Translations under genes and position numbers: made by a program | Notes under the pieces: model-generated | What the model was told of the DNA's origin: nothing | The model's input: only the letters and a program-made list of their open reading frames with translations | The model's database searches: none | Assembly (NCBI RefSeq): GCF_025264665.1 | Contig: NZ_CP073697.1 | Coordinates: 248,001-312,000 of the forward strand | DNA from: Edaphobacter flagellatus | Lineage (GTDB): Bacteria > Acidobacteriota > Terriglobia > Terriglobales > Acidobacteriaceae | Length of the DNA: 64,000 nt | Direction: 5' to 3' | Shown here: in pieces, positions 2,750 through 25,038 of the stretch | How positions within the stretch are numbered: the stretch's first letter is position 1 | How the letters are laid out: every line of letters starts with the position of its first letter

Positions 2750-2983
2750 AAATCCTCTGTCAATCCCCGCCCAACTCCAAAAACCTCACAACTCAAACAA
2801 ACAAAGAGCGATAACCCGCCCAGCAAAACTGCCGATCAGTTTCACCCAGCCTGCTAAACTTAAGCCAGCAGCAAAAACAGGAAAGCCCCGGCTCAATGCC
2901 GGGGCTTTCTATGTAACGAAGGTAACCGTCCCAATAACTTCAATGGATTTAATACTTTGCACAAAATCACCCGGAGAGCTAGG
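2750..2983. repeat. Dispersed ~240-bp intergenic element, copy 1
   Basis: This copy shares an ordered set of blocks with 24781-25038. They are a left end AAATCC(TC)TGTCAA.CCCC, an interior CTGCCGAT, TGCTAAACTTAA at 2852-2863 (12 of 12 identical), a terminator-like hairpin (GAAAGCCCCG...CGGGGCTTTC, 2881-2910), and a right end ACCCGGAGAGCTAGG. The CTA of the right end (2979-2981) is the stop codon of eda on the minus strand, so the element begins inside the gene's last codon. On the minus strand its hairpin can terminate eda transcription; on the plus strand it can block read-through from upstream. No ORF is carried. Confidence 0.7.
2881..2910. terminator. Bidirectional terminator hairpin inside repeat copy 1
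   Basis: GAAAGCCCCGGC pairs with GCCGGGGCTTTC around a short loop. It sits about 70 bases beyond the eda stop on the minus strand and can act as a terminator in either direction. Confidence 0.7.
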
Positions 2984-3635
2984 AGGCCTTCCTCGCCTGG
3001 AACTCCTTCACAATCGCCAGGTACTTCTTAGCGCTCTCAGTCACAATCTCGGGCTTGCCCTCAGCCATAGCCTTTGTATTCACCAGATCGGCGCCAACAC
3101 CTAAAGCAAAAGCTCCAGCATCCAGGAAGTCATTCGCCGTCGCCAACGAAACGCCGCCCGTCGGAATCATCTCTACCTGAGGCAGCGGAGCCTTCAGCGA
3201 CGATAGATACTTCGCTCCACCCAGCGCACTCGCCGGGAAGATCTTCACTACATCCGCGCCAGCCTCCCAGGCCGTAACCACCTCGGTCGGAGTCAACGCG
3301 CCAGGCAGCGCAGCGATGGAATAGCGATGGCACATCTCAATCGTCTTCAGGTTCAGCGCCGGGCTGACAACAAACTTCGCACCTTCAAGAATGCACGCAC
3401 GAGCCGTCTCCGCATCCAGCACCGTGCCCGCGCCGATCAGGATGTCAGGACGCTGTTCCGCCAGCTTCCGCATCACCTGGATCGCGCCCGGAACCGTCAT
3501 CGTGATCTCGAGCACCGTGACTCCGCCAGCAGCAATCGCCTCGGCAAGAGCCAGCGCCTTCTCAACCGACTCGGCGCGCAGCACCGGAACCAGTCCAATA
3601 TTCTTCAATGAAGCCAGAACAGCGGCCTTCGTCAT
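2979..3635 (-). CDS. eda: 2-dehydro-3-deoxy-phosphogluconate (KDPG) aldolase
   Basis: Class I aldolase (218 aa, normal length) that cleaves KDPG into pyruvate and glyceraldehyde-3-phosphate, the last step of the Entner-Doudoroff and hexuronate routes. Visible hallmarks are VPVLRA near the N-terminus, the catalytic Glu in VLEITMT, the phosphate-binding GAGTVLD, the Schiff-base lysine in DVVKIFPA, and the second phosphate site PTGGVS. It lies 73 bases downstream of kdgK on the same strand, completing a kduI-kdgK-eda run. Its TAG stop is the right edge of the dispersed repeat. A bifunctional KDPG/KDPGal or 4-hydroxy-2-oxoglutarate aldolase activity cannot be excluded. Confidence 0.95.
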   Translation of the reverse strand: MTKAAVLASLKNIGLVPVLRAESVEKALALAEAIAAGGVTVLEITMTVPGAIQVMRKLAEQRPDILIGAGTVLDAETARACILEGAKFVVSPALNLKTIEMCHRYSIAALPGALTPTEVVTAWEAGADVVKIFPASALGGAKYLSSLKAPLPQVEMIPTGGVSLATANDFLDAGAFALGVGADLVNTKAMAEGKPEIVTESAKKYLAIVKEFQARKAS

Positions 3636-3664
3636 AATGCATTACTCGCTTTCTCAAAAGTATC

Positions 3665-3694
3665 GAGCTCCGGAGGGATCGCCTGCCGGAGCTC
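3665..3694. other. Intercistronic hairpin between kdgK and eda
   Basis: A perfect 9-bp inverted repeat, GAGCTCCGG (3665-3673) with CCGGAGCTC (3686-3694), lies in the 73-base gap. There is no T-run on the minus-strand side, so it is more likely an mRNA-stability or partial-attenuation element than a full terminator. Confidence 0.5.
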
Positions 3695-3708
3695 TGGTTA
3701 GAAATCTA

Positions 3709-4812
3709 TTACCGCTGAACGCGAGCGCCGCCGCCCTTCATCACGCGCTGCACCTCGTCGAACGTCGCCATCGTCGTGTCGCCGGGTGTCGTCATCGCCA
3801 GCGCGCCATGAGCGCAGCCGCAGTTGACCGCCCAGTCAGCGCCCTTATCGTTCAGGAAGCCGTAGATCAGGCCTGAAGCAAATGAGTCACCGCCGCCGAC
3901 GCGGTCGAAGATCTCAAGATCTGGCATCGGGCGCGCTTCGTGGAACTTGCCCTCGTAGTAGCAAACCGCGCCCCAGTCATTCACGCTCGCCGTCTTCGCA
4001 TGACGCAGCGTTGTCGCCACGGCCTTGAAGTTCGGATACGTTGCTACAGCCTTCTCGATCATCTTGCGGAAGTTCGCCGAATCCAGCTCACCCAGATCGT
4101 CGCCTACACCCTCGATCTCGAAACCGAGCGCAGCCGTGAAATCCTCTTCGTTGCCGATCATCACGTCAACATACTGCGCAATATCGCGGTTGACTTCGGT
4201 AGCCTTGGCCTTGCCGCCGATCGACTTCCACAGTGAGTCACGGTAGTTCAGGTCGTAGCTGGTGATCACGCCATGTTTGCGGGCAGCCATCAAGGCTTCC
4301 TTGCAAACTTCAGGAGTCGTCTCGCTCAGAGCGCAGAAGATGCCGCCGGTGTGGAACCAGCGAGCGCCTTCCTTGCCGAAGATCTCGTCCCAGTCGATCT
4401 GGCCGGGCTTCAGCTGGCTGACAGCGGTGTTGCCGCGGTCCGAGCAGCCCAGCGCGGCACGCACGCCGAATCCGCGCTCCGTAAAGTTGAGGCCGTTGCG
4501 CACCGTACGGCCCACGCCGTCGTACTTGGCCCACTGCACATGGCTCTGGTCGACGCCGCCCTGGTTCATCAGGTCCTCAACCAGCCGGCCGACCGGATTG
4601 TCAGCCAGCGCCGTCACAATCGCCGTCTTCAACCCGAAGCAGCGACGCAGTCCGCGAGCAACGTTATATTCGCCGCCGCCTTCCCAGACCTGAAACTGTC
4701 GCGTCGTCGCGACACGAACGTCGCCCGGATCGAGACGAAGCATCACTTCGCCCAGGCTGACCAAATCCCACTTACACTCTTCCTTCTTGCGAATCTTTAA
4801 ACTCTCACTCAT
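3709..4812 (-). CDS. kdgK: 2-keto-3-deoxygluconate kinase (PfkB family)
   Basis: Phosphorylates 2-keto-3-deoxygluconate (KDG) to KDPG, feeding eda. The 367-aa protein has the PfkB N-terminal motif LGEVMLRLDPG, a GGEYNVARGL substrate loop, and the C-terminal ATP/anion-hole signature GGGDSFASG with the catalytic Asp. At 367 residues it is somewhat longer than many KDG kinases, owing to an extended N-terminus and internal insertions. Only three bases separate its start from the kduI stop, which points to translation from one mRNA. Other PfkB sugar kinases share these motifs; assignment to KDG rests on the kduI/eda/kduD neighbours. Confidence 0.88.
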   Translation of the reverse strand: MSESLKIRKKEECKWDLVSLGEVMLRLDPGDVRVATTRQFQVWEGGGEYNVARGLRRCFGLKTAIVTALADNPVGRLVEDLMNQGGVDQSHVQWAKYDGVGRTVRNGLNFTERGFGVRAALGCSDRGNTAVSQLKPGQIDWDEIFGKEGARWFHTGGIFCALSETTPEVCKEALMAARKHGVITSYDLNYRDSLWKSIGGKAKATEVNRDIAQYVDVMIGNEEDFTAALGFEIEGVGDDLGELDSANFRKMIEKAVATYPNFKAVATTLRHAKTASVNDWGAVCYYEGKFHEARPMPDLEIFDRVGGGDSFASGLIYGFLNDKGADWAVNCGCAHGALAMTTPGDTTMATFDEVQRVMKGGGARVQR

Positions 4813-4815
4813 CTC

Positions 4816-5646
4816 TTATCGAAGCTCCGTAATCGTTACTGCGTCCATATCGTCATACACCTGGTTTTCTCCGCCCATACCCCAGCAGAAGGTGTAGTTC
4901 TTCGTGCCCACACCGGCATGAATCGACCATCCCGGCGAGATCACAACTTCTTTGTCAGCCATCACCAGATGGCTCGTCGCATCCGGCGGCCCCATCAGGT
5001 GCAGCACACGATGCGCCGGATCAACATCAAAATAGAAATAGACCTCGCTGCGGCGCATGTGCGTGTGCGGAGGCATCGTATTCCAGTTACTTCCCGGCTC
5101 CAGCATCGTGAAGCCCATCACCAGCTGGCAGCTCTTAATGCCGTCCTTATAGATGGCTTTATAAATCTTGCGCTTATTGCAGGTCTCAAAGCTCCCAAGC
5201 TCAACCGGCTTCATATCGGCAAACTTGATCATGGCTGTTGGATATTCAGCGTGCGCGGGATAGCTCAGAAGATAGAACTGCGCAGGACTCCCCGAGTCCT
5301 TACTGGCAAAATGAACATCCTTCGATCCACGCCCAACATAGAGCACATCCAGCTTGTCCATGTCGAAAACTTTGCCATCGACCGTCACGGAACCCGAACC
5401 GCCGATATTCAACACACCAAGCTCGCGACGCTCCAAAAAATAGTCAGCTCGCAGCTCAGGCTCTGCCTCCAGAGCCAGCGACGTATCGGTAGGCACTACC
5501 GAACCGATCACCGTACGATCGAGGTCGACATACGCAAATTCGATCTCATTGGGGCGAAACAGCCCCTCGACCAGGAACGTCTCGCGCAGCTCCTCGGTAT
5601 TCATCATTTCGTACCGAACGGCATCTGCCATCTGATACAGCCTCAT
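4816..5646 (-). CDS. kduI: 5-keto-4-deoxyuronate isomerase
   Basis: Cupin isomerase converting 5-keto-4-deoxyuronate (from unsaturated uronides) into 3-deoxy-D-glycero-2,5-hexodiulosonate, the substrate of KduD. The ATG at 5646 was chosen because AAGGAG lies 7 bases upstream and the protein then begins MRLYQMADAVRYEMMN, the family N-terminus; the open frame extends 25 codons further without a ribosome site. The resulting 276 aa is the family's normal length. Family motifs seen are FLVEGLF, a zinc-binding cupin signature (PPHTHMRRSEVYFYF with two His and a Glu), and the terminal WGMGGEN. It heads the kduI-kdgK-eda transcript, divergent from kduD. Confidence 0.95.
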   Translation of the reverse strand: MRLYQMADAVRYEMMNTEELRETFLVEGLFRPNEIEFAYVDLDRTVIGSVVPTDTSLALEAEPELRADYFLERRELGVLNIGGSGSVTVDGKVFDMDKLDVLYVGRGSKDVHFASKDSGSPAQFYLLSYPAHAEYPTAMIKFADMKPVELGSFETCNKRKIYKAIYKDGIKSCQLVMGFTMLEPGSNWNTMPPHTHMRRSEVYFYFDVDPAHRVLHLMGPPDATSHLVMADKEVVISPGWSIHAGVGTKNYTFCWGMGGENQVYDDMDAVTITELR

Positions 5647-5956
5647 CTCACTTCTCCTTGTTGCAGTAATTGTTGTACGCCTCGTTGGGGGAGGCCGTGA
5701 TAAGGGCCGCAAATCCAGCATATATTCGACGTTTAGAGCCGACCTATGCCATATGACCTAGCTTGAAATCGAATCCTTTCCACCATACGAAACCCAATCC
5801 ACGACGGTCAATACAACTCCCATAACCGCACATCCGTGACCTCATCGGGAACCAAGGATTATCTATCCATAAAAATCTATACCTATCAGTGAAAATGGAT
5901 GGATTTTTGGCAATTATTTGCCCCACCCCCGCGTGCGCCATTAAAGTGGCAACACC
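5647..5956. promoter_or_regulatory. Divergent control region between kduI and kduD
   Basis: A 310-base non-coding region between two genes of one pathway, so a shared operator is expected. The kduI ribosome site AAGGAG lies near 5654-5659. Near kduD there is an A/T-rich patch with inverted ATCCAT (5865-5870) and ATGGAT (5895-5900), flanked by AAAAATC and GATTTTTGG. No match to KdgR- or ExuR-type boxes could be identified by eye, so the regulator is unknown. Confidence 0.35.
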
Positions 5957-6718
5957 ATGCAAAATATTCTTGACCTCTTCCGTCTCGACAATAAAGTCGC
6001 CCTCGTCACCGGCGCAGCCAGCGGCCTCGGAGCCGCCATCGCCACCGGGCTTGCACAGGCAGGTGCTACCGTCGCCGTCCACGGAAACCGCCGCGCGACA
6101 ACGGAGACGGCTGCCACCATCGGCTCCAACGCTGCCGCCTTTCGGGCTGATCTATCGACGACGGAAGGCGCGAACGATCTTTTTACACAGGTCAAAGAGA
6201 AGTTCGGCCGTGTCGATATCCTCATCAACAATGCGGGAACAATCCTTCGCCACGCCGCCGAGGAATTCCCTCTGGAAGACTGGCAAACTGTGCTTCAGGT
6301 AAATCTCACGAGTGTCTTCCAGCTCTCGCAACTCGCCGGACGCGACATGATCGGTCGCAACGCACCAGGCAAGATCGTCAATATCGCCTCGCTGCTTAGC
6401 TTCCAGGGAGGAATCCGCGTGCCTGCTTATGCGGCTAGCAAAGGTGGTGTGGCCCAGCTGACCAAGGCGCTTGCCAATGAGTGGGCCTCAAAAAACATCC
6501 AGGTCAATGCCATCGCACCTGGCTACTTTGCCACGACAAATACTGAAGCGTTACAGGCCGACGAAACGCGCAATCGACAGATCCTCGAGCGCATCCCTGC
6601 CGGCCGTTGGGGCCAGCCCACTGATCTTGCCGGAGCTGCACTCTTTCTCAGTTCTCCTGCCAGCGACTATGTGACTGGAACGGTCGTGACCGTGGATGGT
6701 GGATGGATGGGCCGCTGA
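5957..6718 (+). CDS. kduD: 2-dehydro-3-deoxy-D-gluconate 5-dehydrogenase (KduD-type SDR)
   Basis: Short-chain dehydrogenase reducing 3-deoxy-D-glycero-2,5-hexodiulosonate to KDG with NAD(P)H, linking KduI to KdgK. The 253-aa protein shows the SDR Rossmann motif TGAASGLG, NNAGT, the catalytic Ser region (IASLLSFQGG), YAASKGG (Tyr/Lys), and the C-terminal DYVTGTVVTVDGGW. The N-terminal ILDLFRLDNKVALVTG resembles KduD proteins. It is divergent from kduI and convergent with the next oxidoreductase gene, only 15 bases away. The generic SDR fold alone would not fix the substrate; the pathway context does. Confidence 0.88.
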   Translation: MQNILDLFRLDNKVALVTGAASGLGAAIATGLAQAGATVAVHGNRRATTETAATIGSNAAAFRADLSTTEGANDLFTQVKEKFGRVDILINNAGTILRHAAEEFPLEDWQTVLQVNLTSVFQLSQLAGRDMIGRNAPGKIVNIASLLSFQGGIRVPAYAASKGGVAQLTKALANEWASKNIQVNAIAPGYFATTNTEALQADETRNRQILERIPAGRWGQPTDLAGAALFLSSPASDYVTGTVVTVDGGWMGR

Positions 6719-6733
6719 CAAGCGGCCATCCTA

Positions 6734-7810
6734 TTATTCAATTGGCAGTACGACTCCGCCACGCTCGCTCGATATATATGCGGCCTCTACCGTTCGCATC
6801 GTATCGATTGCATCTTCGACCCTGGTAGGCAGCGTCTCCGCATCGCCCTCCACAAACGCCTGCAACGAGCCCATCGACCCCATAAAAGCGTCAGGAAACC
6901 AGTTCCCAGAGATTGGAGCCTGCCGCCATCCCGCGCCGTCGCGAAGAATGTATTCAAGATTGTCCGGTTCGCCGACGGGATAGTTCAGGTTGACCCCCAT
7001 CTGCGCCCGCATCGCTCCATCCATTCCCTCCCACTGCACGTAGCTCCTCTGTAACCTGGGAGAGAAGTCATGGCTATGGTTCGTATCGATGAAGACACGC
7101 TTGTCGTCTCCGTAGTCGAAGACGATCACACTCTTTGTCGAAGCAAGATTCGGCGTCTTCGGGCTGCGAACCGACTTCGCATAGACACTGCGCGGATTGC
7201 CGAACCAGCTTCGCACCAGATCGACATAGTGAATGGAGTGATACGTAATCTCCAGGCGCGGAGCCGTACTCAGAAAGCTCCACAGCTCCCACGGCATGTG
7301 CACGCTCAGGGAGACTTCCATGTCGTGCAGCAGGCCCAGCGTTCCGCTCTCTGTCAGGGCTTTAGCCGCGAGCATATTGGGTGCCCAGCGAAGCTGAAAA
7401 TTAACCGCTGCAACCAGTCTCTTTTCTCTGCAGATGCGGAGAATCTCCAACGCTTCGGCAAGTGTATCGCCCATCGGCTTTTGAATCAGCACGGCTGAGC
7501 CATTCGGAAGCTGCGGCAGAATCGCAGGAATCGCCTTCGCAGGAACTGCCACATCGAAGACAGCATTCGCTGGAGCAAAGCGAATAGCTTCCGCAATCGA
7601 GTCCGTACCCAGCGCCACGTGGAACTTCTTCGCCAACTCCTCCGCCCGTTCGCGGTTGACATCCACCAAAGCAGCTACGGGAAAACCAGCTTTCGCGTAT
7701 GCGGGCAGATGGGCGTCATGAACGATGCCGCCGGAGCCGATCATCACAATCGGCCGCGGAGTTTTTGGTCGTGGCTCGTGAATATCACACAGTATGGTTT
7801 CAAGATTCAT
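6734..7810 (-). CDS. Gfo/Idh/MocA-family NAD(P)-dependent oxidoreductase
   Basis: 358-aa sugar or polyol dehydrogenase-like protein. The N-terminal Rossmann domain shows MIGSGGIVHDAHLPAY and VALVDVNRERAEELA; IQKPMGDT is the EKP-like motif of the family. The C-terminal alpha/beta domain contains SIHYVDLVRSW, with conserved His and Asp. The ATG at 7810 was preferred over a 63-codon upstream extension because it places the Rossmann fold near the N-terminus and has AAGAGA upstream. Homologues act on inositol, glucose-fructose or uronic acids; the substrate here is unknown. Its place beside the kdu genes suggests a side entry into hexuronate or aldonate metabolism. Confidence 0.85.
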   Translation of the reverse strand: MNLETILCDIHEPRPKTPRPIVMIGSGGIVHDAHLPAYAKAGFPVAALVDVNRERAEELAKKFHVALGTDSIAEAIRFAPANAVFDVAVPAKAIPAILPQLPNGSAVLIQKPMGDTLAEALEILRICREKRLVAAVNFQLRWAPNMLAAKALTESGTLGLLHDMEVSLSVHMPWELWSFLSTAPRLEITYHSIHYVDLVRSWFGNPRSVYAKSVRSPKTPNLASTKSVIVFDYGDDKRVFIDTNHSHDFSPRLQRSYVQWEGMDGAMRAQMGVNLNYPVGEPDNLEYILRDGAGWRQAPISGNWFPDAFMGSMGSLQAFVEGDAETLPTRVEDAIDTMRTVEAAYISSERGGVVLPIE

Positions 7811-7924
7811 GGGTGATTCTCTTTTCACTTGTACAAACGCCATTCTATTACCGAAACTCTCTCTGCTGGCATCTCTCCAATCAGCTTGCGTCGCCGACTG
7901 CTCCACTCGTACGCTACCAGAGAG

Positions 7925-8677
7925 ATGTCCTCCGCGCTCGAACTCGCCCTGCTCTCCTGCGCTCTCCTTGGCCTGCGACACGGTTTTGATTACGATCACT
8001 TGGCTGCAATCACAGACATCACAAGCGTACAGCGCACCTGGCGCGAAGGCATGAAGCTAGGCTTGCTCTACGCGATCGGCCACGCCTTTACGGTTGCTCT
8101 GCTTGGTGCAGCTGTCATCTTCCTTCATCTCCGGCTGCCGGAACGCATGGACGCCATCGGAGAAAAACTAGTCGGTGCAACTCTGATTGTGTTGGCCCTG
8201 TATGTCCTGATTGCATTTCTGCGCCGCAGCCCATCGCATCGGCATGCGCTTCCTCCCAGTCGCATCGCGTTGCTGATTACAGGAGTGCAGCATCTTACAT
8301 GGCGCCTGCGTCGCATTGTTCGGCCAGACACGCCTCGTCCCGACGCATTTTCCTTCCGTTACGACCGCAGCTCTGTCTTCATCGTCGGCATCATTCACGG
8401 GCTTGGCGCCGAGACACCGTCGCAGCTTCTGCTTTTTCTGCTCGCTGCCAATCTTGGAGGAACAAGCCGCGGTTTCCTCGGCCTTCTCTGCTTCATCGCT
8501 GGACTTCTGCTGATGAACACGCTGATGACGGCCTCGGCCTCCGGAGTCTTTCTCTCCAGCACACACAGGCCACGGCTCCAGATGCTGATCACCTCGCTCA
8601 CTGCGGTCTACAGCTTTGTCATTGGAACCGTCTTTTTACTTGGAGTCAGCGATAAGCTTCCTCCACTGCTTCATTAA
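7925..8677 (+). CDS. NicO/NiCoT-type nickel (cobalt) transporter
   Basis: A 250-aa integral membrane protein with about six hydrophobic segments. Residues 18-25 are RHGFDYDH, the His/Asp signature of nickel/cobalt transporters that forms the first metal site; a second helix carries the IIHGLGAETPSQ motif. The ATG at 7925 (weak upstream AGAG) gives a normal N-terminus; the open frame reaches 32 codons further back, into the divergent promoter. It is followed after 37 bases by the diketogulonate-reductase-like gene and then larE, all on the plus strand. The likely role is supplying Ni2+ for the nickel-pincer nucleotide made by the lar genes. Cobalt specificity cannot be excluded. Confidence 0.82.
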   Translation: MSSALELALLSCALLGLRHGFDYDHLAAITDITSVQRTWREGMKLGLLYAIGHAFTVALLGAAVIFLHLRLPERMDAIGEKLVGATLIVLALYVLIAFLRRSPSHRHALPPSRIALLITGVQHLTWRLRRIVRPDTPRPDAFSFRYDRSSVFIVGIIHGLGAETPSQLLLFLLAANLGGTSRGFLGLLCFIAGLLLMNTLMTASASGVFLSSTHRPRLQMLITSLTAVYSFVIGTVFLLGVSDKLPPLLH

Positions 8678-8714
8678 TTTCGATTTTGCACTCGTTTTCT
8701 TTGAGGAAGAACTG

Positions 8715-9734
8715 ATGCTTCGTGTTCCCTTCGACCATCTCGATGCCGCTCTTCGCCAGGCGATGCTCCGGCTTGGCCTTCCCGAAGACCGCGCCACCCG
8801 CTGCGCTCGCTTGTTCGCAGAGACCACGCGCGATGGCATCTACACGCACGGCCTCAACCGTTTTCCACGTTTTTCTGCAATGGTGAAGAACGGCAGCATC
8901 GACGTGCACGCCACACTAACGCTAACCGCCGGCTTCGGCGCGATAGAACGCTGGAATGGGAATCGTGGCATCGGAAATCTTAATGCCCAGGATGCAACCA
9001 CTCGCGCCATCGAGCTGGCGCGCAAAAACGGTATGGGTGCCGTCGCACTGGCAAATACCAATCACTGGATGCGGGGCGGAGCCTTCGGATGGCAGGCTGC
9101 AGATCAAGGGCTCTTCGCCATCTGCTGGTCGAACACGCTGGCGAATCTGCCCGCATGGGGAGCGACGACGCCTGCACTAGGCAACAACCCTCTCGTGCTA
9201 GCCATCCCTCGTAGCGAAGGAAACCTTGTTCTCGACATGGCGATGAGCCAGTTCTCCTACGGCACGCTTGCTTCTTACAGCAAGCGTGGAGTCCCACTGC
9301 CTGTCCCTGGCGGCTATGACAAGCAGGGGCATCTCACCCAGGACGCCGCCGCCATTGAAGCCTCGCAGCGCGCGCTGCCCATCGGCTACTGGAAAGGTTC
9401 AGGCCTTGCTTTGGTGCTCGACGCCATCGCCGCCATGCTTTCAGGGGGTATGGCGACGCATCAGTTCCCGCAGGATCCTCTGCAGGAGGTGGGACAGTCA
9501 CAGATATTCCTCGTCATCGATCCGTCGAACCTCGCTGCGGCTGCGGAGCTGAACCACATTGCCGACGGCATCATCGATTCCCTGCGTCAAGCAACGCCAA
9601 TCGACCCGGCCAAACCCATCCGCTATCCCGGCGAACAGACACTGCAGCTGCGCGAAGAGAACATGCGGCTCGGCGTTCCGGTCGATCCGGATATTTGGAA
9701 TCAGATCAGTTCCATAGAACCGACAAGCGCGTAG
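8715..9734 (+). CDS. dlgD: 2,3-diketo-L-gulonate reductase-like dehydrogenase (Ldh/MDH2 family)
   Basis: A 339-aa NAD(P)H-dependent reductase of the malate/L-lactate dehydrogenase-2 family. From memory it follows E. coli YiaK/DlgD closely in several stretches: GIYTHGLNRFPRF, GNRGIGNLNA, NHWMRGGAFGWQAA, and GYWKGSGLALVLD. DlgD reduces 2,3-diketo-L-gulonate to 3-keto-L-gulonate. The ATG at 8715 has GAGGAA about eight bases upstream; the frame extends 33 codons further, overlapping the transporter gene, and was not used. It lies between the nickel transporter and larE, which suggests that the NPN cofactor serves an enzyme handling a sugar acid. A ureidoglycolate- or sulfolactate-type substrate is a less likely alternative. 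Confidence 0.8.
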   Translation: MLRVPFDHLDAALRQAMLRLGLPEDRATRCARLFAETTRDGIYTHGLNRFPRFSAMVKNGSIDVHATLTLTAGFGAIERWNGNRGIGNLNAQDATTRAIELARKNGMGAVALANTNHWMRGGAFGWQAADQGLFAICWSNTLANLPAWGATTPALGNNPLVLAIPRSEGNLVLDMAMSQFSYGTLASYSKRGVPLPVPGGYDKQGHLTQDAAAIEASQRALPIGYWKGSGLALVLDAIAAMLSGGMATHQFPQDPLQEVGQSQIFLVIDPSNLAAAAELNHIADGIIDSLRQATPIDPAKPIRYPGEQTLQLREENMRLGVPVDPDIWNQISSIEPTSA

Positions 9735-9784
9735 ACTCGCATCCTGACCGGCAACTCCGCTACCATCTTGTAGGAGCAACAAAA

Positions 9785-10618: not shown

Positions 10619-10668
10619 TAGAGCGAAAAGGCTTGGCATCTTCTGCAAAGCCTCCCTCTGCTCCTCTT

Positions 10669-11541: not shown

Positions 11542-11777
11542 AAAGCCTCCTTTCGGCTTCAAACAATAAGCAGTTAAACGCACATTGCCGGCAGCACCTA
11601 TGAGCCCACGAACAAGGGAACCTGGAGCGTAGCCGGCAACGTGTGGCGATGGATCGTAAAACCGTGGGAAATTCTACTCTTCAGAACGTGACATCGAATG
11701 GAAAATTCAAGTCCAGCGCGATCTCGCAGCGCATCAGCACATAGCCGAGCCTCTCGCGGCATGAAACAATGTTTTTC
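11542..11777. other. Divergent intergenic region upstream of larC
   Basis: 236 bases separate the secreted-protein gene (minus) from larC (plus). Apart from the minus-strand ribosome site AAAGGAGG near 11546-11553, no clear promoter boxes or riboswitch-like fold could be picked out by eye. Confidence 0.4.
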
Positions 11778-14228: not shown

Positions 14229-14305
14229 GCGCCCGTAGCTCAGCTGGATAGAGCATCTGGCTTCGAACCAGAGGGTCGGAGGTTCGAGTCCTTCCGGGCG
14301 CACCA
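14229..14305 (+). tRNA. tRNA-Arg, anticodon TCG
   Basis: A 77-base cloverleaf with acceptor GCGCCCG/CGGGCGC, anticodon stem TCTGG/CCAGA and loop CTTCGAA giving anticodon TCG (Arg, CGA codons). The T-loop is GGTTCGAGTCC and CCA is encoded. It is a close relative of the tRNA-Arg(ACG) at 15757. Confidence 0.97.
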
Positions 14306-15118: not shown

Positions 15119-15159
15119 TGCAACCTCCTCACTTCCATCTGCATACTATGACCGTTACT

Positions 15160-15652: not shown

Positions 15653-15702
15653 CAAGTGACTCCAGCCAGCTATCAGGATCAGTAAGTTTTCCTACGCTGC
15701 AT

Positions 15703-15731
15703 TTGATCTAACAGCCGAAGTCCGGTATATT
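15703..15731 (+). promoter_or_regulatory. Probable sigma-70 promoter for tRNA-Arg(ACG)
   Basis: TTGATC (15703-15708) and TATATT (15726-15731) are separated by 17 bases and end 25 bases before the mature tRNA. Confidence 0.55.
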
Positions 15732-15756
15732 GAAAAGGTTGCATCTAACGCAATGT

Positions 15757-15833
15757 GCGCCCGTAGCTCAGCTGGATAGAGCAACTGGCTACGAACCAGT
15801 AGGTCGGACGTTCGAATCGTTCCGGGCGCACCA
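15757..15833 (+). tRNA. tRNA-Arg, anticodon ACG
   Basis: A 77-base cloverleaf with acceptor GCGCCCG/CGGGCGC, anticodon stem ACTGG/CCAGT and loop CTACGAA giving anticodon ACG (read as ICG, Arg CGN). The T-loop is GTTCGAATC and CCA is encoded. It is a paralogue of the tRNA-Arg at 14229. Confidence 0.97.
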
Positions 15834-15882
15834 TACACTCCCTTACAACAGAACAACTCCCAGGCTGATAGAGCTTGCACGC

Positions 15883-16500: not shown

Positions 16501-16757
16501 CACCCTCCCAGCATCCGTCACCAGCCCAGAGCATTTTATAAACAGCACATAAATTCTTCCTGGGCATTTCTCCCTAAATCACTCTTTCGCTGAGCATTTA
16601 ATTCTGGACTGAATCAGTCGCAATAATTGACGACCAATTTAGTCCTCAATAAACTATGAAGATACCGGCAACGAGGTCAGAACCAAACCTCGCGCGTACG
16701 GATTTGAGGCAGGCCTGGCCGCAGACTTTGGCCTTCCCGGGGGAAGAGAAACACCTC

Positions 16758-18032: not shown

Positions 18033-18050
18033 GGAGCAAAGGCGGCAGTC

Positions 18051-19376
18051 ATGTTCTTTCGACTTTTGATGGAAAGCTTCCGGCGGCAGCGGCGACGCAA
18101 GACACTTGCGGGCCTCGCGATCCTGCTCGGAACCACAGCCATCACCGCCATGCTCGCCCTCGCCCTCACGATCGGGGACCGCATCCACAACGAGCTCGCC
18201 GTCTACGGAGCCAACATCATCGTCTACCCCGCTGCCGATCAGCTCGAAGTTAAAGTCGGCGGTGTCGATGTCAAACCCGTCTCCGGCGCTGCTTCTCTGA
18301 AAGAGTCTGACCTCAAAAAGCTGCGCGGCATCTTCTGGGCCAACAACATCACGGGCGTCAGCCCAGAGTTGCCCATCCGCATCATCGGCAAGACGGCAAA
18401 TGGAACTGCTGTGGACGCTTCGGCAACCGGCCTCTGGTTCAATCACGCTCTCAGCAGTGGTGGAGGAGCTGCGCTCACCACTGGAGCACCACAACTTCAT
18501 CCTCTCTGGAAGCTGGATGGGGCTTGGCCCAATGAATCTTCCACGAGTTCCGACACAGCACAGGCCGTCGTAGGAGCCACGCTTGCCTCACAGCTAGGCC
18601 TCCACATCAACGACGTCATCCAGACGACCGCAGTCAGCAAGCCCATCACATTGCATATCACCGGCATCGTTTCGTCGGGCGATGACGTCGACAATCAGCT
18701 CCTGCTGCCTCTCAACGCGGCACAAGCCATCGTCGGCACGCCCGATGCAGTCCGCCGCGTCGAAGTCTCCGCCCGCACCAAACCCGAAGACGCCTTCGCC
18801 CGCAAAGACCCCGATTCCCTCTCGCCCAAACTGCGCGAGGTCTGGTACTGCCGCCCCTACGCCAACTCCATCGCCTACCAGATCCGTGAGGCCATCCCCG
18901 GCAGCCGCGCCGAGCAGGTACGCCGCGTCGAGCAGAGCCAGGGCAACGTGCTCAAGCGCATCAGCGGACTCATGTGGCTCATCAGCGCCGCAGCCATGCT
19001 CGCCGCAGGCTTCGCTGTCAGCGCAGCTATGGCCACGGCCATCCTCGAACGCCAGGGCGAGATCGGCCTCATGCGCTCCCTCGGAGCCAGCAAGGGTGCC
19101 ATCGCCCTGCTCTTCTACGCCGAAACCGGCCTGCTCGCCCTCTTCGCCGGATCGCTCGGCTATCTTGCCGGTTCCGGCCTCGCCGCCTGGCTCGGCGCAC
19201 GCATCTTCGGCTCCGCAGGCACGGGCACGCATCTGGCCTTGGCCGACATTCTCAATCCCGTCCTGCTCCCCGTCGTCATCGCGCTCGCGCTCTTCGTCGC
19301 CATCGCAGGCAGCACACCCGCCATCCGCCGCGCGCTCACCATGGATCCCTCCGCCATTCTGAGGGCCGACGTATGA
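18051..19376 (+). CDS. ABC transporter permease, MacB/FtsX type (iron operon)
   Basis: A 441-aa permease. The N-terminal helix (LAGLAILLGTTAITAMLALAL) is followed by a large periplasmic domain of ~230 residues, then three C-terminal helices in the FtsX domain: WLISAAAMLAAGFAVSAAMATA, a segment around LLALFAGSLGYLAGSGLAAW, and LLPVVIALALFVAIAGS. It also has the typical coupling sequence ERQGEIGLMRSLGASK. It ends in an ATGA overlap with the second permease. In the related Campylobacter cluster two such permeases and an ATPase accompany FTR1/P19. The role is presumably energised handling of iron or of a redox partner in the periplasm. Confidence 0.88.
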   Translation: MFFRLLMESFRRQRRRKTLAGLAILLGTTAITAMLALALTIGDRIHNELAVYGANIIVYPAADQLEVKVGGVDVKPVSGAASLKESDLKKLRGIFWANNITGVSPELPIRIIGKTANGTAVDASATGLWFNHALSSGGGAALTTGAPQLHPLWKLDGAWPNESSTSSDTAQAVVGATLASQLGLHINDVIQTTAVSKPITLHITGIVSSGDDVDNQLLLPLNAAQAIVGTPDAVRRVEVSARTKPEDAFARKDPDSLSPKLREVWYCRPYANSIAYQIREAIPGSRAEQVRRVEQSQGNVLKRISGLMWLISAAAMLAAGFAVSAAMATAILERQGEIGLMRSLGASKGAIALLFYAETGLLALFAGSLGYLAGSGLAAWLGARIFGSAGTGTHLALADILNPVLLPVVIALALFVAIAGSTPAIRRALTMDPSAILRADV

Positions 19377-20479
19377 GCCGCCAGTTGAGCATGATCTCCA
19401 TGCTGCGCCGCTCACTCGTGCATCGCCGCGCACGCAGCCTCTCCGCGCTGCTCGCCATGACCATCTCTGCCGCAGTCGCCACCGCCCTGCTCACCCTCTA
19501 CGCCGACCTCGACTCCAAGCTTCACCGCGAGTTTCGCAGCTTCGGCGCAAACATCGTCATCACTGCCGCCGACAACAAGCCTCTGCCTCCCGACACGCTC
19601 GACCGCGTTCGCGCCGCCGCAGGCTCCGATGCCATTGCAGCCGAATTCGCCTACGCCGTCGCCACCACCGACCGAGGAACACCTATCGTCGTCGCCGGCA
19701 CCGACTTCGACACGGCACGCCGTCTCAACTCTTCGTGGCAGGTCGCTACATGGCCTTCAGCAAGCGATATCAACGCCGCGCTCCTCGGCCAACGCGCAGC
19801 GCAGTTCATCGCCGACGAGCACGCCGTCACCCTCACCTTCGCCAATCGTCCCATGACCTTCAAGGGCGCAGGCCGCCTCACCACCGGCGGCGACGAGGAC
19901 AGCCGCATCTACATCCCGCTCACAACACTCACCACGTGGACCGGCACCCAGCCCAGCGTCATCGAGCTCCAGGTCCCCGGGGGCGCTGCGCAGGTCGAAT
20001 CCGCAATCGCGCGACTCCAGCAACAGCTTCCCGGCCTCAAGGTCTCACCCGTCCGTCAGCTCGTCGAAGGCGAGAGCCGCATCGTCGACAAGACGCACGC
20101 GCTCATGTACGGCTCCGTCATTCTCATCGCGCTCACGGTAGCCGTCAGCGTCCTCGCAACGCTCTCCGCCAGCGTGCTGGAGCGCCGCCGCGACTTCGCT
20201 TTGATGAAGGCGCTAGGCAGCTCGCAGATGCAGCTCATGTCGATGTTTCTGCTGGAGGCCTTCGTCCTCGCTCTTGCGGGCGTCGTCGTCGGATACATTC
20301 TCGGCTCAGCCGCAGCGCTCGCCATCAGCCAGCTCAACTTCCACACAGCCACCCTGCCGCGCATCGGCGTACTGCCTCTGGTGCTGTTGCTCAACATCCT
20401 CATTGCGGCGATGGCCGCAATGTTTCCCGTCCGCGTCCTCCGTCGTCTTGAGCCCGCGGCCCTGCTGAAAGGCGAGTAA
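19373..20479 (+). CDS. Second MacB/FtsX-type ABC permease (iron operon)
   Basis: A 368-aa paralogue of the preceding permease, starting at the ATG of the ATGA overlap (19373) with GAGGG just upstream. The open frame extends about 130 codons further back in an out-of-phase region of the first permease and is not coding there. It has an N-terminal helix (LSALLAMTISAAVATALL), a periplasmic domain with FGANIVITAADNKPLP (like the partner's YGANIIVYPAADQ), and three C-terminal helices with ERRRDFALMKALGSS. Both permeases keep a short periplasmic 'GANI' block, suggesting they form a heterodimer. Confidence 0.9.
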   Translation: MSRQLSMISMLRRSLVHRRARSLSALLAMTISAAVATALLTLYADLDSKLHREFRSFGANIVITAADNKPLPPDTLDRVRAAAGSDAIAAEFAYAVATTDRGTPIVVAGTDFDTARRLNSSWQVATWPSASDINAALLGQRAAQFIADEHAVTLTFANRPMTFKGAGRLTTGGDEDSRIYIPLTTLTTWTGTQPSVIELQVPGGAAQVESAIARLQQQLPGLKVSPVRQLVEGESRIVDKTHALMYGSVILIALTVAVSVLATLSASVLERRRDFALMKALGSSQMQLMSMFLLEAFVLALAGVVVGYILGSAAALAISQLNFHTATLPRIGVLPLVLLLNILIAAMAAMFPVRVLRRLEPAALLKGE

Positions 20480-20484
20480 GACCG

Positions 20485-21246
20485 ATGGTCAATGACACCC
20501 CGGCAATCGAAAGCATGATCGAGCTGACGCGCCCCGACTGCGCCGTCATTGCGCTGCACGGCGTCACACGCGAGTACGAAGGCCACGCCGGCAAGGTCTG
20601 CGCCCTCGACCACGCCTCCTTCTCCATCGTCGCTGGCGAATGGGTCGCCATCACCGGCCCTTCAGGCTCCGGCAAGAGCACCCTCGTCAATCTCCTCGGA
20701 TGCCTCGACCGCCCCACCGCGGGCCAGCTTCACATCGACGGCGTCGACGTCGCCACCATGTCCGCGACCGAGCTCGACCGCTTCCGCGCCGATAAGATCG
20801 GCTTCATCTTCCAGCAGTTTCACCTCATCCCGTATCTCTCCGCGCTCGAAAACATCATGCTCGCGCAGTACTTCCACTCCATGACCGACGAGAAGGAAGC
20901 CCGCGCCGCGCTTGAGCGTGTCGGCCTCGGCCACCGCGCCGACCATCTCCCCAGCGAGCTCTCCGGCGGCGAGCAGCAGCGCGTCTGCGTCGCCCGCGCC
21001 CTCATCAATAACCCGCCAATCCTTCTCGCCGACGAACCCACCGGAAACCTCGACGCGGCCAACCAGAAGATCGTCGCCGGCCTGCTGCAGGAGCTTCACG
21101 CTCAGGGACACACCATCGTCATGGTCACCCACGACCCCGAGATGGCCGCACTCGCGCAACGCCGCATCGCGCTCAGCCACGGCAAAGTCTTCTGTCACCC
21201 AGTCGGTGGTCCCGTCGTTATGCTGCGTCGAAAGACCGACGTCTAA
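20485..21246 (+). CDS. ABC transporter ATP-binding protein (iron operon)
   Basis: A 253-aa ATPase of the MacB/LolD class, last gene of the FTR1 operon, starting 5 bases after the permease stop. Walker A is GPSGSGKST, the Q-loop lies in [19 protein letters not shown], the signature is LSGGEQQR, Walker B is [12 protein letters not shown], and the switch His is in VTHD. It powers the two preceding permeases. No periplasmic P19-like copper/iron protein or thioredoxin gene follows, unlike in the Campylobacter arrangement. Confidence 0.92.
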
Positions 21247-21289
21247 CGCCCGTAATCTTTCCAGGTTGAGCCCTGCTCTGGAGCAATTT

Positions 21290-21357
21290 CCAAAGAAGTG
21301 TCCTTCCAGGCGGAGCGCAAAGCGCGCAGTCGAGAAACCCTCTGCATTTCGTCTTTG
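21290..21357. repeat. Second copy of the 'AAGCGCGCAGTCGAG' intergenic repeat
   Basis: The tract GAGCGCAAAGCGCGCAGTCG at 21313-21332 lies in a wider segment (TGTC.TTCC..GCG...CGCAAAGCGCGCAGTCGAG.AACCC) that matches 2411-2451. It lies in the convergent gap between the ABC ATPase and nadK, the same kind of location as copy 1. Confidence 0.6.
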
Positions 21358-21360
21358 CCT

Positions 21361-22218
21361 TTAGCGCTCGCCCCAGCTCAGCTTGCTGCGCAGCACATTA
21401 AACAACCCATTCTTGCGCGGACGCAGCAGCCGCACCCGCTGCTCCGACCTGCAGCAAAGCACCTGATCATCCACCTGCAGCTCCACGGCCTCCTGCCCAT
21501 CCACCGTCAGGTAGGTCAGGTTCGGCACGCCCTCAATGTGAATCATCACCGTCGAATCGCCCGGCACCACAATCGGCCGAACAGTCAGCAGGTGAGGGCA
21601 GATCGGGGTCACCACCAGCGCATTCACGGAAGGCATCACAATCGGACCATCCGCCGCCAGGTTGTACGCCGTCGAACCCGTAGGCGTCGAAACGATAATC
21701 CCATCCGCGCGCAACGCCGCTACAAACTGCTGGTCGATCTCGACCGAAAAGTCCGCCATGCGTGCAATCGCGCCCTTCGACACCACCACATCGTTCAGCG
21801 CATCCCAGTGCCGTATCGTCGAGCCGCGACGTCGCAGCTCCACATGCATCATGTCGCGTTCTTCAATGCTCGCGCAGTTATCGCACCACGCCTCCAGCGA
21901 CGAGTACAGGTCCGCTAGGGGCACCTCCGTCAGAAATCCCAGCGACCCCAGGTTCACTCCCAGAATCGGCGTCGGCGAATGTGCAAACGCACGTGCAGCA
22001 GCCAGCAGCGTTCCATCGCCGCCCAGCACAATCACCAGGTTCGGCTTCTCCCGCGGCATCTCATTCCGCTGCACCGACCGATTCGCCTCCAGATACGCTG
22101 CGCTGTGCGGGTCCAGCAGAGGTTCGTAGTCATGAGCCTTCAGCCACTCCATCAGCTCCGGCAAAATTGAGGCAAGCTCCGGCTTCTGTGGCTTCGAGAT
22201 GATGGCTGCCTTGTACAT
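21361..22218 (-). CDS. nadK: NAD kinase
   Basis: Phosphorylates NAD to NADP (285 aa, normal length). Motifs are VIVLGGDGTLL (GGDGT), NLGSLGFLTE, the NE/D-type stretch ALNDVVVSKG, and TPTGSTAYNLAADGP. The ATG at 22218 gives the family N-terminus MYKAAIISKPQKPE; the frame is open 43 codons further back, overlapping tlyA. It begins 7 bases after the tlyA stop, a tlyA-nadK pairing seen in many bacteria. It acts in the cytosol. Confidence 0.95.
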   Translation of the reverse strand: MYKAAIISKPQKPELASILPELMEWLKAHDYEPLLDPHSAAYLEANRSVQRNEMPREKPNLVIVLGGDGTLLAAARAFAHSPTPILGVNLGSLGFLTEVPLADLYSSLEAWCDNCASIEERDMMHVELRRRGSTIRHWDALNDVVVSKGAIARMADFSVEIDQQFVAALRADGIIVSTPTGSTAYNLAADGPIVMPSVNALVVTPICPHLLTVRPIVVPGDSTVMIHIEGVPNLTYLTVDGQEAVELQVDDQVLCCRSEQRVRLLRPRKNGLFNVLRSKLSWGER

Positions 22219-22225
22219 GGTCGTT

Positions 22226-23020
22226 TTAGTGTAACGGCTCCTGCGCTGCCCGCTGCACCGATTCTCCAAACACGGCTCGCAGCAGATACTCGTGGTTACC
22301 CTCCATCCCCTGTATCGGCGAATCGATAACCTCAAGCTGCGTGCCACCCAGCCCAGCTACGCACTCCGTCACGCGTTCAATCGCGGCCTGCCTAGCCTGC
22401 TCATCGCGCACAATGCCGCCCTTACCCACATTCTCCCGCCCTGCCTCAAACTGCGGCTTGATCAGCACGACCGCACTCCCGCGCCATGGCTGCCCTTCGC
22501 TTCCCAAAGCCGCCAACACCGCAGGCAATACCAGCGTCGCCGAGATAAACGAGACATCCATCGACAGGAACGCAGGAACCGGCTGCCCTTCCACCAGCAG
22601 CTCTCCCGGCTGCAGCAGACGAGCATTCGTGCGCTCTCGCAACGTCACACGCTCATCCGAGCGCAGCTTCTGCGCAATCTGCCCATAGCCCGTATCGACA
22701 GCCAGCACGCTCGCCGCACCCGCCTGCAACATGCAGTCCGTGAACCCTCCCGTCGAAGCCCCGATATCCACCGCGCGCACGCCCGTCAACGAAATCTTCC
22801 AGTGCTCCAGTGCATGCTCCAGCTTCAGCCCGCCGCGGCTTACATACTTCAGGTCCGTCCCCAGCAGGCGAATCACGGCATCCTCAGGAACACTCATGCC
22901 CGGCTTGTCGATCTTCTGTTCGTTCACCAGCACGCGTCCCGCCAGAACCAGCGCCTGCGCTCGCTCCCGCGAAGCCGCATGCCCCTGCTCCACCAGCATC
23001 TTGTCCAATCTGTTCTTCAT
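22226..23020 (-). CDS. tlyA: TlyA-family rRNA 2'-O-methyltransferase
   Basis: A 264-aa protein with an N-terminal S4 RNA-binding domain (RLDKMLVEQGHAASRERAQALVLAG) and a C-terminal FtsJ-like SAM methyltransferase domain (VDIGASTGGFTDCML, SMDVSFISATLVLP, LIKPQFEAG). TlyA proteins methylate 16S and/or 23S rRNA riboses. The ATG at 23020 was chosen because it starts directly before the S4 domain; the frame is open 73 codons upstream, through the divergent sigma-factor promoter. It is followed by nadK after 7 bases. Confidence 0.92.
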   Translation of the reverse strand: MKNRLDKMLVEQGHAASRERAQALVLAGRVLVNEQKIDKPGMSVPEDAVIRLLGTDLKYVSRGGLKLEHALEHWKISLTGVRAVDIGASTGGFTDCMLQAGAASVLAVDTGYGQIAQKLRSDERVTLRERTNARLLQPGELLVEGQPVPAFLSMDVSFISATLVLPAVLAALGSEGQPWRGSAVVLIKPQFEAGRENVGKGGIVRDEQARQAAIERVTECVAGLGGTQLEVIDSPIQGMEGNHEYLLRAVFGESVQRAAQEPLH

Positions 23021-23141
23021 CGGCAAATTCTTTTCACCCACGGGGGGACGCTCATTCGTTAAGGTACAACGTGACGTTCCATAGGTTAGAGTGGCTAAGA
23101 ACACTGCATCCGCAATCCGACCAGGCCGCCGGGACGTATTG

Positions 23142-23708
23142 ATGTATAGAGAGATGGGATTGGCAAATACTTCGCCACGCACACCGCACGATGACGCAAC
23201 ACTGCTGTCTCTCGTGCGCCGTGGAGACGAACACGCCATGGCCTCCCTCTACGACCGCTACGCGAAGATCGTCTATTCCGTTGCGCTCCGTGTTCTGCGC
23301 GATCCGGCATCCGCAGAAGACATACTTCAGGAGGTCTTTTTGCAGGTCTGGCGCAATCCCGAGCGATACGTCGCTGTTCGCGGAAGCCTTGGCGCGTGGC
23401 TCACCGTCGTCACCCGCAATCGCTCTATCGACGCCCTGCGCCGCAAAAAGCCGCTCGAAACCATCGACGACGTCTCCCTCGCCTCGCAGTACGATCTCGC
23501 CGCCGACGCCGAGCGCAACACCATGGCCGAGAAAGCGCGCACCGTCATCTACAAGCTTCCCGCCGAGCAGCGCAAGACCCTCGAAATGGCCTTCTTCGAC
23601 GGCCTCACCCACTCCGAGATTGCCGAGATGACCGGCGATCCGCTCGGCACCGTCAAGACCCGCATCCGCAGCGCGCTCACCACGCTGAGAAAGGCATTCC
23701 TCGCATGA
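23142..23708 (+). CDS. ECF sigma factor (SigK-like)
   Basis: A 188-aa sigma-70-family factor with region 2 (LYDRYAKIVYSVALRVLRDPASAEDILQEVFLQVW, containing the core-binding and -10 recognition helices) and region 4 (LPAEQRKTLEMAFFDGLTHSEIAEMTGDPLGTVKTRIRSAL). The start is uncertain: ATG at 23142 or 23154, or an upstream GTG at 23091. Its stop overlaps the start of an anti-sigma gene (ATGA), the standard coupling of SigK/RskA pairs. It is transcribed divergently from tlyA. The signal it answers to is not visible in the sequence. Confidence 0.88.
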   Translation: MYREMGLANTSPRTPHDDATLLSLVRRGDEHAMASLYDRYAKIVYSVALRVLRDPASAEDILQEVFLQVWRNPERYVAVRGSLGAWLTVVTRNRSIDALRRKKPLETIDDVSLASQYDLAADAERNTMAEKARTVIYKLPAEQRKTLEMAFFDGLTHSEIAEMTGDPLGTVKTRIRSALTTLRKAFLA

Positions 23709-24718
23709 GCTCCGTCAGCCACTACGATCCCGGCGATCTGGCTCTCTTTGCCATGCAGCTGCTTCCGCGCAATGAGCACGCGGCTATGAGCGCGCACATC
23801 AGCGACTGCAGTTACTGCCGTCAGGAGCTCGCCAACCTGCAGGGCGATCTCGCCGCCTACGCCCACGGCGTCGAAATGCACTCGCCGCCCGCGCTCGCCC
23901 GCGAGCACTTCCTCAATCAGATCGCCCGCGAAAAGCGCTTCGCCCCCGGCACATCACCAATCGAACACGAGCCTGCCTTCGAGCCTTCACGTTTACCCGA
24001 CCGTCCCGGTTTCCAACGACCGGAGCGTACACCGCCCCCACGCTCAGAACGCTTCGAGCGGCTCGAAGCTGCCGCCGCTGGCCTTCCCATGGGATATGCC
24101 AACCGCAGCCAGGCCTACCCCACCGGACTGGGCAGCGGACGCTACCTCGACGAAGACGACAACGAGCAGAACCGCGCCTCCCTGCCTGCGCGTCTCTTCA
24201 CCAACGTCTTCCCCTGGATCGGCTGGGCCGCCGCCGCTACGCTCGCCATCTTCGCAGGAAACCTCTACCACGAGCGCAATGCGCAGCGCGTAAGGCTCAC
24301 CGCACAGGCTGGCCAGATCGACCGCCTCAGCTCCAATGCCGCTGCTGCGCAGCAGCTTCTTGAGACCCTCACCGACAGCTCGGCTCGTCAGGTTACCCTC
24401 ACCCAGGCCAACACCACGCCTGAGCCTCCGCGTCCCCAGGGACGGGTCACCTACGTCGCCTCCAGGGGAGCCCTCATCTTCCTGGCCACCAACCTGGAAC
24501 CCGTCGATACCTACAAGACCTACGAGCTATGGCTCATACCCTCCGACGGACGCGACCCCATCCCCGCCGGCACCTTCCGCCCGGACAATCGTGGAAACGC
24601 CAGCGTCGTCCTGCCGCCCCTGCCAAAGGGCATCGAGGCCAAAGCCTTCGGCGTCACCCTCGAAGACGACGGCGGAGCTCAAACTCCCACCATGCCCATC
24701 CTCCTCGCCGGAAACTAG
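23705..24718 (+). CDS. Anti-sigma-K factor, RskA-like, membrane-anchored
   Basis: A 337-aa regulator partner. The start is the ATG of the ATGA overlap with the sigma gene; the open frame further upstream is out-of-phase sigma-factor DNA. The N-terminal cytosolic zinc-finger-like anti-sigma domain has HISDCSYCRQEL (H-x3-CxxC). A low-complexity Pro/Arg/Glu stretch (residues ~80-125) follows, then one transmembrane helix (WIGWAAAATLAIFAG), a short coiled-coil, and a periplasmic RskA domain (YELWLIPSDGRDPIPAGTF). It likely holds the sigma factor at the inner membrane until released by proteolysis. Confidence 0.88.
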   Translation: MSSVSHYDPGDLALFAMQLLPRNEHAAMSAHISDCSYCRQELANLQGDLAAYAHGVEMHSPPALAREHFLNQIAREKRFAPGTSPIEHEPAFEPSRLPDRPGFQRPERTPPPRSERFERLEAAAAGLPMGYANRSQAYPTGLGSGRYLDEDDNEQNRASLPARLFTNVFPWIGWAAAATLAIFAGNLYHERNAQRVRLTAQAGQIDRLSSNAAAAQQLLETLTDSSARQVTLTQANTTPEPPRPQGRVTYVASRGALIFLATNLEPVDTYKTYELWLIPSDGRDPIPAGTFRPDNRGNASVVLPPLPKGIEAKAFGVTLEDDGGAQTPTMPILLAGN

Positions 24719-24780
24719 CCCTCACGGGCTTGTGCTCACACTGCGTGTGGAGGGATCTGCTTTTCTACTCTCCGCCCCCA

Positions 24781-25038
24781 AAATCCTGTCAAGCCCCCTA
24801 AAATCGCATCTCTCACATTCCAAAGGAAATAAACCCACAAAAATCTGCCGATTCACCCTCACCCATTTGCTAAACTTAAACCATGGTTAGAAAAAGAAAG
24901 CCCCGCCATGCAGTGGGGCTTTCTCCTTTGGAATCAATATTTTTAGGGATAACTACCCTGCTTTCAATATTTTACCTCGTGCAAATCGCGTAAAGACAAG
25001 CAACAAAAGGGGTTATTGAAAGTACCCGGGGGGCTAGG
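24781..25038. repeat. Dispersed ~240-bp intergenic element, copy 2
   Basis: It has the same ordered blocks as 2750-2983: left end AAATCCTGTCAAGCCCCC, interior CTGCCGATTCACC, TGCTAAACTTAA at 24868-24879, hairpin GAAAGCCCC...GGGGCTTTC (24895-24924), an A/T-rich stretch with TTTCAATATTTTAC, and right end ACCCGGGGGGCTAGG. Here too the CTA of the right end (25034-25036) is the stop codon of the minus-strand gene. The 62 bases between the anti-sigma stop and the left end hold nothing recognisable. Confidence 0.7.
24895..24924. terminator. Bidirectional terminator hairpin inside repeat copy 2
   Basis: AGAAAGCCCC pairs with GGGGCTTTCT around a 10-base loop, with A-rich sequence on the left. It can end transcription of the anti-sigma gene (plus) and, farther off, of the beta-propeller gene (minus). 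Confidence 0.7.

Follow-up and report, generated by a model that had tools for sequence, protein, structure and literature searches.

Two minus-strand genes in the 64,000-nucleotide stretch of DNA analyzed here (the window), from the soil bacterium Edaphobacter flagellatus, end directly against the right ends of similar intergenic sequences; one encodes an aldolase and the other a β-propeller protein. A preliminary description of this DNA placed two related elements at positions 2750–2983 and 24781–25038 and proposed that their right end supplies the stop codon. We asked what these elements are, how they relate to the gene ends, and whether the stop codon is theirs or the gene's own.

Copies in the window and in the genome

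Both elements are present as described, and direct reading places a CTA, the stop codon of the minus-strand gene, immediately after the right end of each (Table 1). Both start with CTGTCAA on the left, contain a TGCTAAACTTAA box and a GC hairpin, and are rich in G at the right end. Two corrections apply: TGCTAAACTTAA is a variant of the TTCGCTACACTTAA box of the repeat family (with six exact copies genome-wide against none for the reversed control), and copy 1 is a degenerate, partly deleted, and poor member of that family. The minus-strand stem and U tract of the copy 1 hairpin were reported by a terminator scan, and the hairpin of copy 2 was absent from the output of a strict scan. At gathering score, Rfam 15 returned only three tRNAs in the window and no match to the repeat.

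Table 1. Positions of the two repeat copies, their parts, and the genes beside them in the window.
Feature	Position	Strand	Basis and remarks
Further short repeats left of copy 1	2409–2756		Common in pieces to other copies
Repeat copy 1	2757–2978	+	Degenerate, interior and right part shortened; R1 match, CTGTCAA left end, alignment
TAAACT box, copy 1, extended -10-like	2855–2860	+	Direct reading and column conservation over 44 multi-species copies; putative promoter role
GC hairpin, copy 1	2881–2909	-	Terminator-like on minus strand: 12 pairs, then CTGTTTTTGC
G-block remnant GGAGAG, copy 1	2973–2978	+	Abuts eda stop; direct reading
eda (KDPG/KHG aldolase)	2979–3635	-	TAG stop is CTA 2979–2981; PF01081, E 3.3e-49
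Left convergent gene of copy 2 (ORF)	23396–24718	+	Anti-sigma-K C-terminal domain, residues 278–434, PF10099, E 4.8e-22; start provisional
Repeat copy 2, full length	24785–25033	+	R1 match; blastn query
TAAACT -10-like box, copy 2	24871–24876	+	Direct reading; column conservation
GC hairpin, copy 2 (GAAAGCCCC/GGGGCTTTC)	24896–24923		Direct reading and stem search
Two AATATTTT boxes, copy 2	24936–24943, 24966–24973	+	30 bp apart; direct reading
G block (right end), copy 2	25028–25033	+	Abuts stop of convergent gene
β-propeller protein gene	25034–26398	-	TAG stop is CTA 25034–25036; PF10282 (Lactonase), E 3.5e-6; start codon provisional

When copy 2 was used as a blastn query, at least 42 matches including itself were found in its own genome, with 40 of 90 candidates scored. 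We then used a model, R1, built from 29 own-genome copies. For this model, the duplicates L003 and L006 were removed from the first alignment, and 4 of the 33 aligned copies (copy 1, L008, L027, and L033) were excluded from the alignment behind it (A2). At E ≤ 1, R1 gave at least 97 own-genome matches from the 150 first-look candidates, out of 802, that were scored. In the window it matched only 2827–2969 (57.1 bits, E 3.7e-7) and 24843–24988 (136.2 bits, E 2.3e-19, rank 26 in the genome); the second match is not independent because copy 2 was among the training sequences, whereas copy 1 was not. The scan of the whole genome and its relatives that the preliminary description had recommended uncovered a large non-coding repeat family, far beyond chance, of which both window copies are members.

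The set analyzed below is the best 80 places, which hold the best 81 matches. A second tandem match (3672179–3672304) and 16 weaker matches (E 0.059–0.98) were dropped from the 97. An all-against-all comparison delimited a common unit of about 260 bp, which runs from roughly -66 to +200 counted from the model start. By our count, 59 of the 80 copies share nearly all of it (about -50 to +150 or more), so the resemblance does not shrink to the terminator stem, as the preliminary description had allowed that it might. The weakest four of the 80 had no common unit at the comparison threshold. About 20 copies, including copy 1, share extra small repeats on the left side; those beside copy 1 lie at about 2409–2476 and from about 2615. 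The pattern GGGGRGGGGG occurs 56 times in 4.45 Mb, and we take this G block to be the right end of the repeat because 50 of the occurrences sit 5–50 nt to the right of one of the 81 strong matches.

To follow the family into other genomes we used a second model, R2, trained on 44 copies drawn from ten genomes, the own genome among them: 10 of the 80 own copies, 16 of 44 from genome G033 (probably E. aggregans), and 18 of 22 others. Of 60 same-genus genomes, counting the own one, 56 had R2 matches, as did none of 40 genomes outside the genus; about 31 candidates were scored per genome, under stricter filters. Copy number in this survey was uneven, with no match in 4 of the 60 and only 1–4 in several. 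Six genomes searched more fully had 22–73 matches each at E ≤ 1e-6. A pattern search also matched E. aggregans DSM 19364 and an Edaphobacter MAG. An apparent absence from the same-genus genomes G010, G012, and G028 with R1 was discarded as an artifact: R2 gave 23 matches in G028, 4 in G010, and 0 in G012, and R1 had missed the first two because it was built from the own genome.

Architecture of a copy and its distance to stop codons

From left to right, a copy comprises CTGTCAAGCCCC, TGCCGATTAGTT, GCTAnACT, hairpin 1, the AATATTTT boxes, hairpin 2, and G6AG5. The TAnACT box, which resembles an extended -10, is among the most conserved blocks across species. In an unanchored alignment of 44 copies from several species, GCTAnACT was conserved at G 95, C 80, T 100, A 100, n, A 91, C 84, and T 98%. 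An earlier box alignment of own copies was anchored on GCTA/GTTA (77 of 80 copies), and those letters are 100% by construction. A promoter scan at the boxes of both window copies reported no promoter with a -35.

Hairpin 1 varies in sequence between copies and keeps its pairing as a terminator-like GC stem. Its consensus fold over 32 own copies has two-sided changes in up to 7 copies per pair. A free stem search, run without a shuffled control, found it in 74 of the 80 copies (748 Watson–Crick, 14 G–T, and 26 A–C positions), with 5.8 A per 10 positions before the stem, which would read as a U tract on the minus strand, and 4.1 T per 10 after it. These figures are consistent with the earlier suggestion that each copy brings a terminator-like hairpin. 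We lean toward minus-strand rather than plus-strand termination, since A–C positions outnumber G–T on the plus strand and A before the stem exceeds T after it. RNAalifold predicted 7 pairs in R1 but none in R2.

The AATATTTT boxes are regularly spaced: 63 of 90 box-to-box intervals in the 80 own copies are 30 bp. Some copies have a third box 42 bp further on, about 20 bp before the G block, and shuffled segments had no boxes. The arms of hairpin 2 match each other more closely when both come from one copy than when they come from different copies (z -7.5, 69 of 80 copies). A long-range pairing to the G block in the full-length consensus fold was weak and U–G-rich and was set aside. No known RNA family was identified in the repeat: on L007, L012, L022, L026, and L030, Rfam 15 gave 17 matches at E ≤ 5, all below gathering score. 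The motif GGGGAGGG presumably resembles KOPS, the FtsK-orienting motif; in a coarse table of strand and GC skew it gave only a weak lean.

Genes were called by our own hexamer scoring, trained on the window and independent of annotation. Neighbor counts omit three gene calls inside the element, and two copies changed class at a stricter threshold. The right neighbor is convergent in 56 of the 80 own copies; its stop lies beyond the core in 54, and a G block was found in 51. In 42 of these 51 the G block is 0–7 nt from the stop, at exactly 0 in 22. Where both gaps were measured (45 copies), the right gap was at most 7 nt in 37 and the left gap in 1. Uniform placement of the element in the gap, a null that ignores other gap constraints, predicts 4.9 ± 1.7 of 45 within 7 nt. 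The preliminary description had proposed tabulating these distances and had considered that right ends might prove to be scattered at random; instead, they lie at stops far more often than chance would allow.

The same polarity was seen elsewhere in the genus. In G033 the stop is 0–7 nt away in 17 of 27 copies, and with both gaps measured the right gap qualifies in 16 of 25 (1.2 expected) and the left in 0 of 25. Among 48 copies from twelve other genomes, the stop was within 0–7 nt in 10 of 27 (1.1 expected) and the left gap in 0 of 27, with four G023 places that had been found twice counted once. Median distances from G block to stop are 1 nt in the own genome, 4 nt in G033, and 13 nt in the other species, where adjacency is looser. 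The right gene points away in 24 of the 80 own copies. The G block then precedes a start codon, at 12–195 nt in the 17 measured.

Origin of the stop codon and age of the copies

If the element supplied the stop, genes lacking it should end differently. Orthologues of 16 right genes were sought in 15 same-genus genomes, and among the matches listed we read 60 orthologous stretches from six genomes, with one to five relatives per gene group. By eye, the C-terminal end is the same or shifted by 1–2 residues in 13 of the 16 genes; the right genes of L042, L044, and L069 have tails that vary among all species. R2 had no match in 58 of the 60 stretches; the genes are about 73–89% identical, and a base-by-base alignment of the junctions is not possible. 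The two matches were at L178 (in opposite orientation) and L175.

Junctions homologous to that of copy 2 have 24 bp from the left gene to the stop in G010, 37 in G024, 84 in G012, and 282 in G028. At L069, the stop is separated from the end of the left gene by 2 bp in both G010 and G024 and by 21 bp in G012. By eye, a plain hairpin often follows the stop at element-free junctions. Because orthologues without the element mostly keep their C-terminus, the stop appears mostly to be the gene's own and the element to be extra DNA behind it. The proposal that the element provides the stop codon is rejected on these grounds.

Copies shared between genomes speak to their age. In a four-gene tree, the own genome, G033, and the G010/G012/G024/G028 group are about equally distant, and 12 of the 44 G033 copies have as right neighbor a gene that also adjoins an own copy. 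For the seven convergent pairs, we read G033/own spacers of 11/6, 11/7, 13/1, 5/0, 3/0, 0/1, and 2/3 nt. Shared right genes with differing spacers suggest that the copies are old and that their short distance to the stop has been maintained or reduced further. The preliminary description had offered insertion at gene ends or co-evolution with them. The association with gene ends stands, and we favor co-evolution over insertion exactly at the stop, since the spacers of own and G033 copies differ and the median in other species is 13 nt.

Candidate roles of the repeat

A non-autonomous, MITE-like element that inserts right behind stops through some stop-sensing mechanism (mRNA or translation, for example) would account for at least 97 R1 matches in one genome, for a subfamily with a longer shared left part, for right ends located at stops, and for element-free junctions in 58 of 60 stretches, including the 2-bp and 21-bp junctions at L069. 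We nevertheless find it doubtful. The 59 copies examined have no terminal inverted repeats (best matches 10.8/30, against 11.6 for shuffled ends) and no target-site duplications of 2–9 nt above shuffled pairings; the preliminary description had suggested looking for such duplications. Y1 transposase (PF01797) has 0 matches in the own genome and is present in 17 of 21 genomes searched; the single reverse transcriptase gene of the own genome has no counterpart in 6 of 8 other R1-positive genomes. Neither tracks the presence of copies, and both were rejected as partners. With no inverted ends, duplications, own Y1 gene, or link between reverse transcriptase and copies, there is no support for movement by a known route and no obvious mobilizer in these two enzyme classes. 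The 12 G033 copies that share a right gene with an own copy at altered spacing also count against this explanation.

It is unlikely, in our estimation, that the repeats are a family of small-RNA genes, in which the -10-like box would drive transcription of a short RNA on the plus strand, spanning hairpin 1, the boxes, hairpin 2, and the G block, or the convergent mRNA would be processed to a 3'UTR RNA whose C-rich seed could pair with GGAGG ribosome-binding sites. The conserved box keeps this explanation in play, GCTAnACT being among the most conserved blocks over the 44 multi-species copies, and both hairpins pair within copies. Against it, no -35 was found at the boxes of the window copies, and neither the window nor the five loci submitted to Rfam gave a match to the repeat at gathering score. 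If the copies were just bidirectional terminators of the usual kind, located between convergent genes and similar only by chance or composition, they would likewise have terminator-like hairpins. However, they would not be expected to share sequence across the whole unit (59 of 80 copies), to have a G block that seldom occurs elsewhere (50 of 56 lie with the family), or to be matched by R2 in 0 of 40 genomes outside the genus, and we regard this explanation as very improbable.

Some 80 own copies, usually with one end almost at a neighboring stop, and the same repeat in many relatives indicate that this genus-wide family is probably a gene-end module rather than a chance pair. Our best reading of the sequences is an old, inherited, slowly turning-over 3'-end module. 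In its full form, as an old structured intergenic repeat that occurs across Edaphobacter, numbers tens of copies where it is abundant, and acts as a gene-end module in each copy, we hold this reading tentatively, at somewhat less than even confidence. Hairpin 1, about 100 nt behind the stop with the boxes and G/C block in between, would end the mRNA of the convergent minus-strand gene. The G/C block may mark or guard the end of the gene. In the mRNA of that gene it would be a C-rich stretch straight behind the stop, in the zone covered by the terminating ribosome, and on the opposite-strand RNA a G-rich stretch that could hinder antisense transcription into the gene. New copies may appear occasionally by some copying step and then be inherited, while selection or deletion would keep the spacer to the native stop short or reduce it. 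A pure 3'-end role would be incomplete, because the right gene points away in 24 of the 80 own copies.

More speculatively, and with low probability in our view, the C-rich tract could act on the terminating ribosome or nascent RNA, together with the terminator and the opposing promoter, at tens of genes and with selected spacing. If so, transcribed gene-end modules would couple translation termination to transcription termination throughout the genus. The family in any case lends itself to sharp tests of how a repeat shapes gene ends or is shaped by them. Its tens of copies in one genome are natural replicates for the effect of sequence directly behind a stop, and it bears on how a non-coding element respects the end of a reading frame.

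No description of such a repeat family was found in the mostly open-access literature searched. Repeats close to stop codons are known in the REPs of E. coli; the family described here is long, structured, and genus-wide, with a polar G/C end 0–7 nt from the stop (42 of 51 own copies). Intrinsic terminators likewise have a GC hairpin with a U-rich side behind stops, but here the hairpin belongs to a conserved 260-bp unit and lies roughly 100 nt from the stop. As far as available accounts go, MITE/RU-type small mobile sequences are similarly short, apparently non-coding, multi-copy, and intergenic, whereas the 59 Edaphobacter copies have neither terminal inverted repeats nor target duplications. 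The accessible text of PMC7518266 describes an effect of mRNA secondary structure behind stop codons on ribosome termination; the feature there is also immediately behind the stop, but it is mRNA structure rather than a G/C-rich tract from a repeat family.

The Edaphobacter repeat resembles stop-proximal REPs and is not one. Like REP/BIME sequences it is dispersed, intergenic, palindrome-bearing, and close to stops (at most 7 nt in 42 of 51 own copies, compared with at most 15 nt for the REP class in PMC12306157, as excerpted). In contrast to them it is about 260 bp long, with one orientation to its neighbor; it has a promoter-like box and phased A/T boxes and ends in G6AG5. The REP/RAYT unit is given as a 20–40 bp palindrome in high copy in the available part of PMC3733652, whereas the Edaphobacter hairpin differs in sequence between copies and the own genome has no Y1 (RAYT-type) transposase. 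According to the part of PMC12306157 available, which cites earlier work, a share of REPs lie within 15 nt of the upstream stop and are reported to stall ribosomes, which makes them the closest precedent in that text for the effect that we infer for the G/C block.

Copies whose right gene points away

Where the gene on the G-block side of the element points away from it, the G block stands in front of that gene's start codon (loci L049, L056, L067, L089 and L114, among others) and resembles a Shine-Dalgarno sequence on the plus strand. Given this placement, the promoter-like box and the hairpin would make up a leader.

Orientation and arrangement of copies

Across the 80 copies in the own genome, element orientation leans weakly with the coarse GC skew along the chromosome. 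Within the G block, GGGGAGGG fits the KOPS consensus of E. coli. One locus, L094, holds a same-strand tandem pair of element matches. A subfamily (L043-L046, L050, L055, L057, L061, L072-L074 and L076) carries additional small palindromes on its left side, such as AAGCCTTCAGGCTTGG and GCCGCGAAGCGGC, in similar order among copies and spanning some 150-500 bp.

Other repeated features in the window

A second dispersed repeat (GTGTCATTCCGAGCGAAGCGCAAAGCGCGCAGTCGAG...) is 88% alike between its two sites, one of which lies to the left of the degenerate element copy near eda. Two tRNA genes, 1.5 kb apart, are 91% alike.

Coordinates of the tandem locus and of other repeated features
Feature	Sequence	Positions
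Tandem pair, L094	G000:C1 (own genome)	3672023-3672304
Second repeat, left site	window	2409-2451
Second repeat, right site	window	21298-21340
tRNA gene	window	14229-14305
tRNA gene	window	15757-15833
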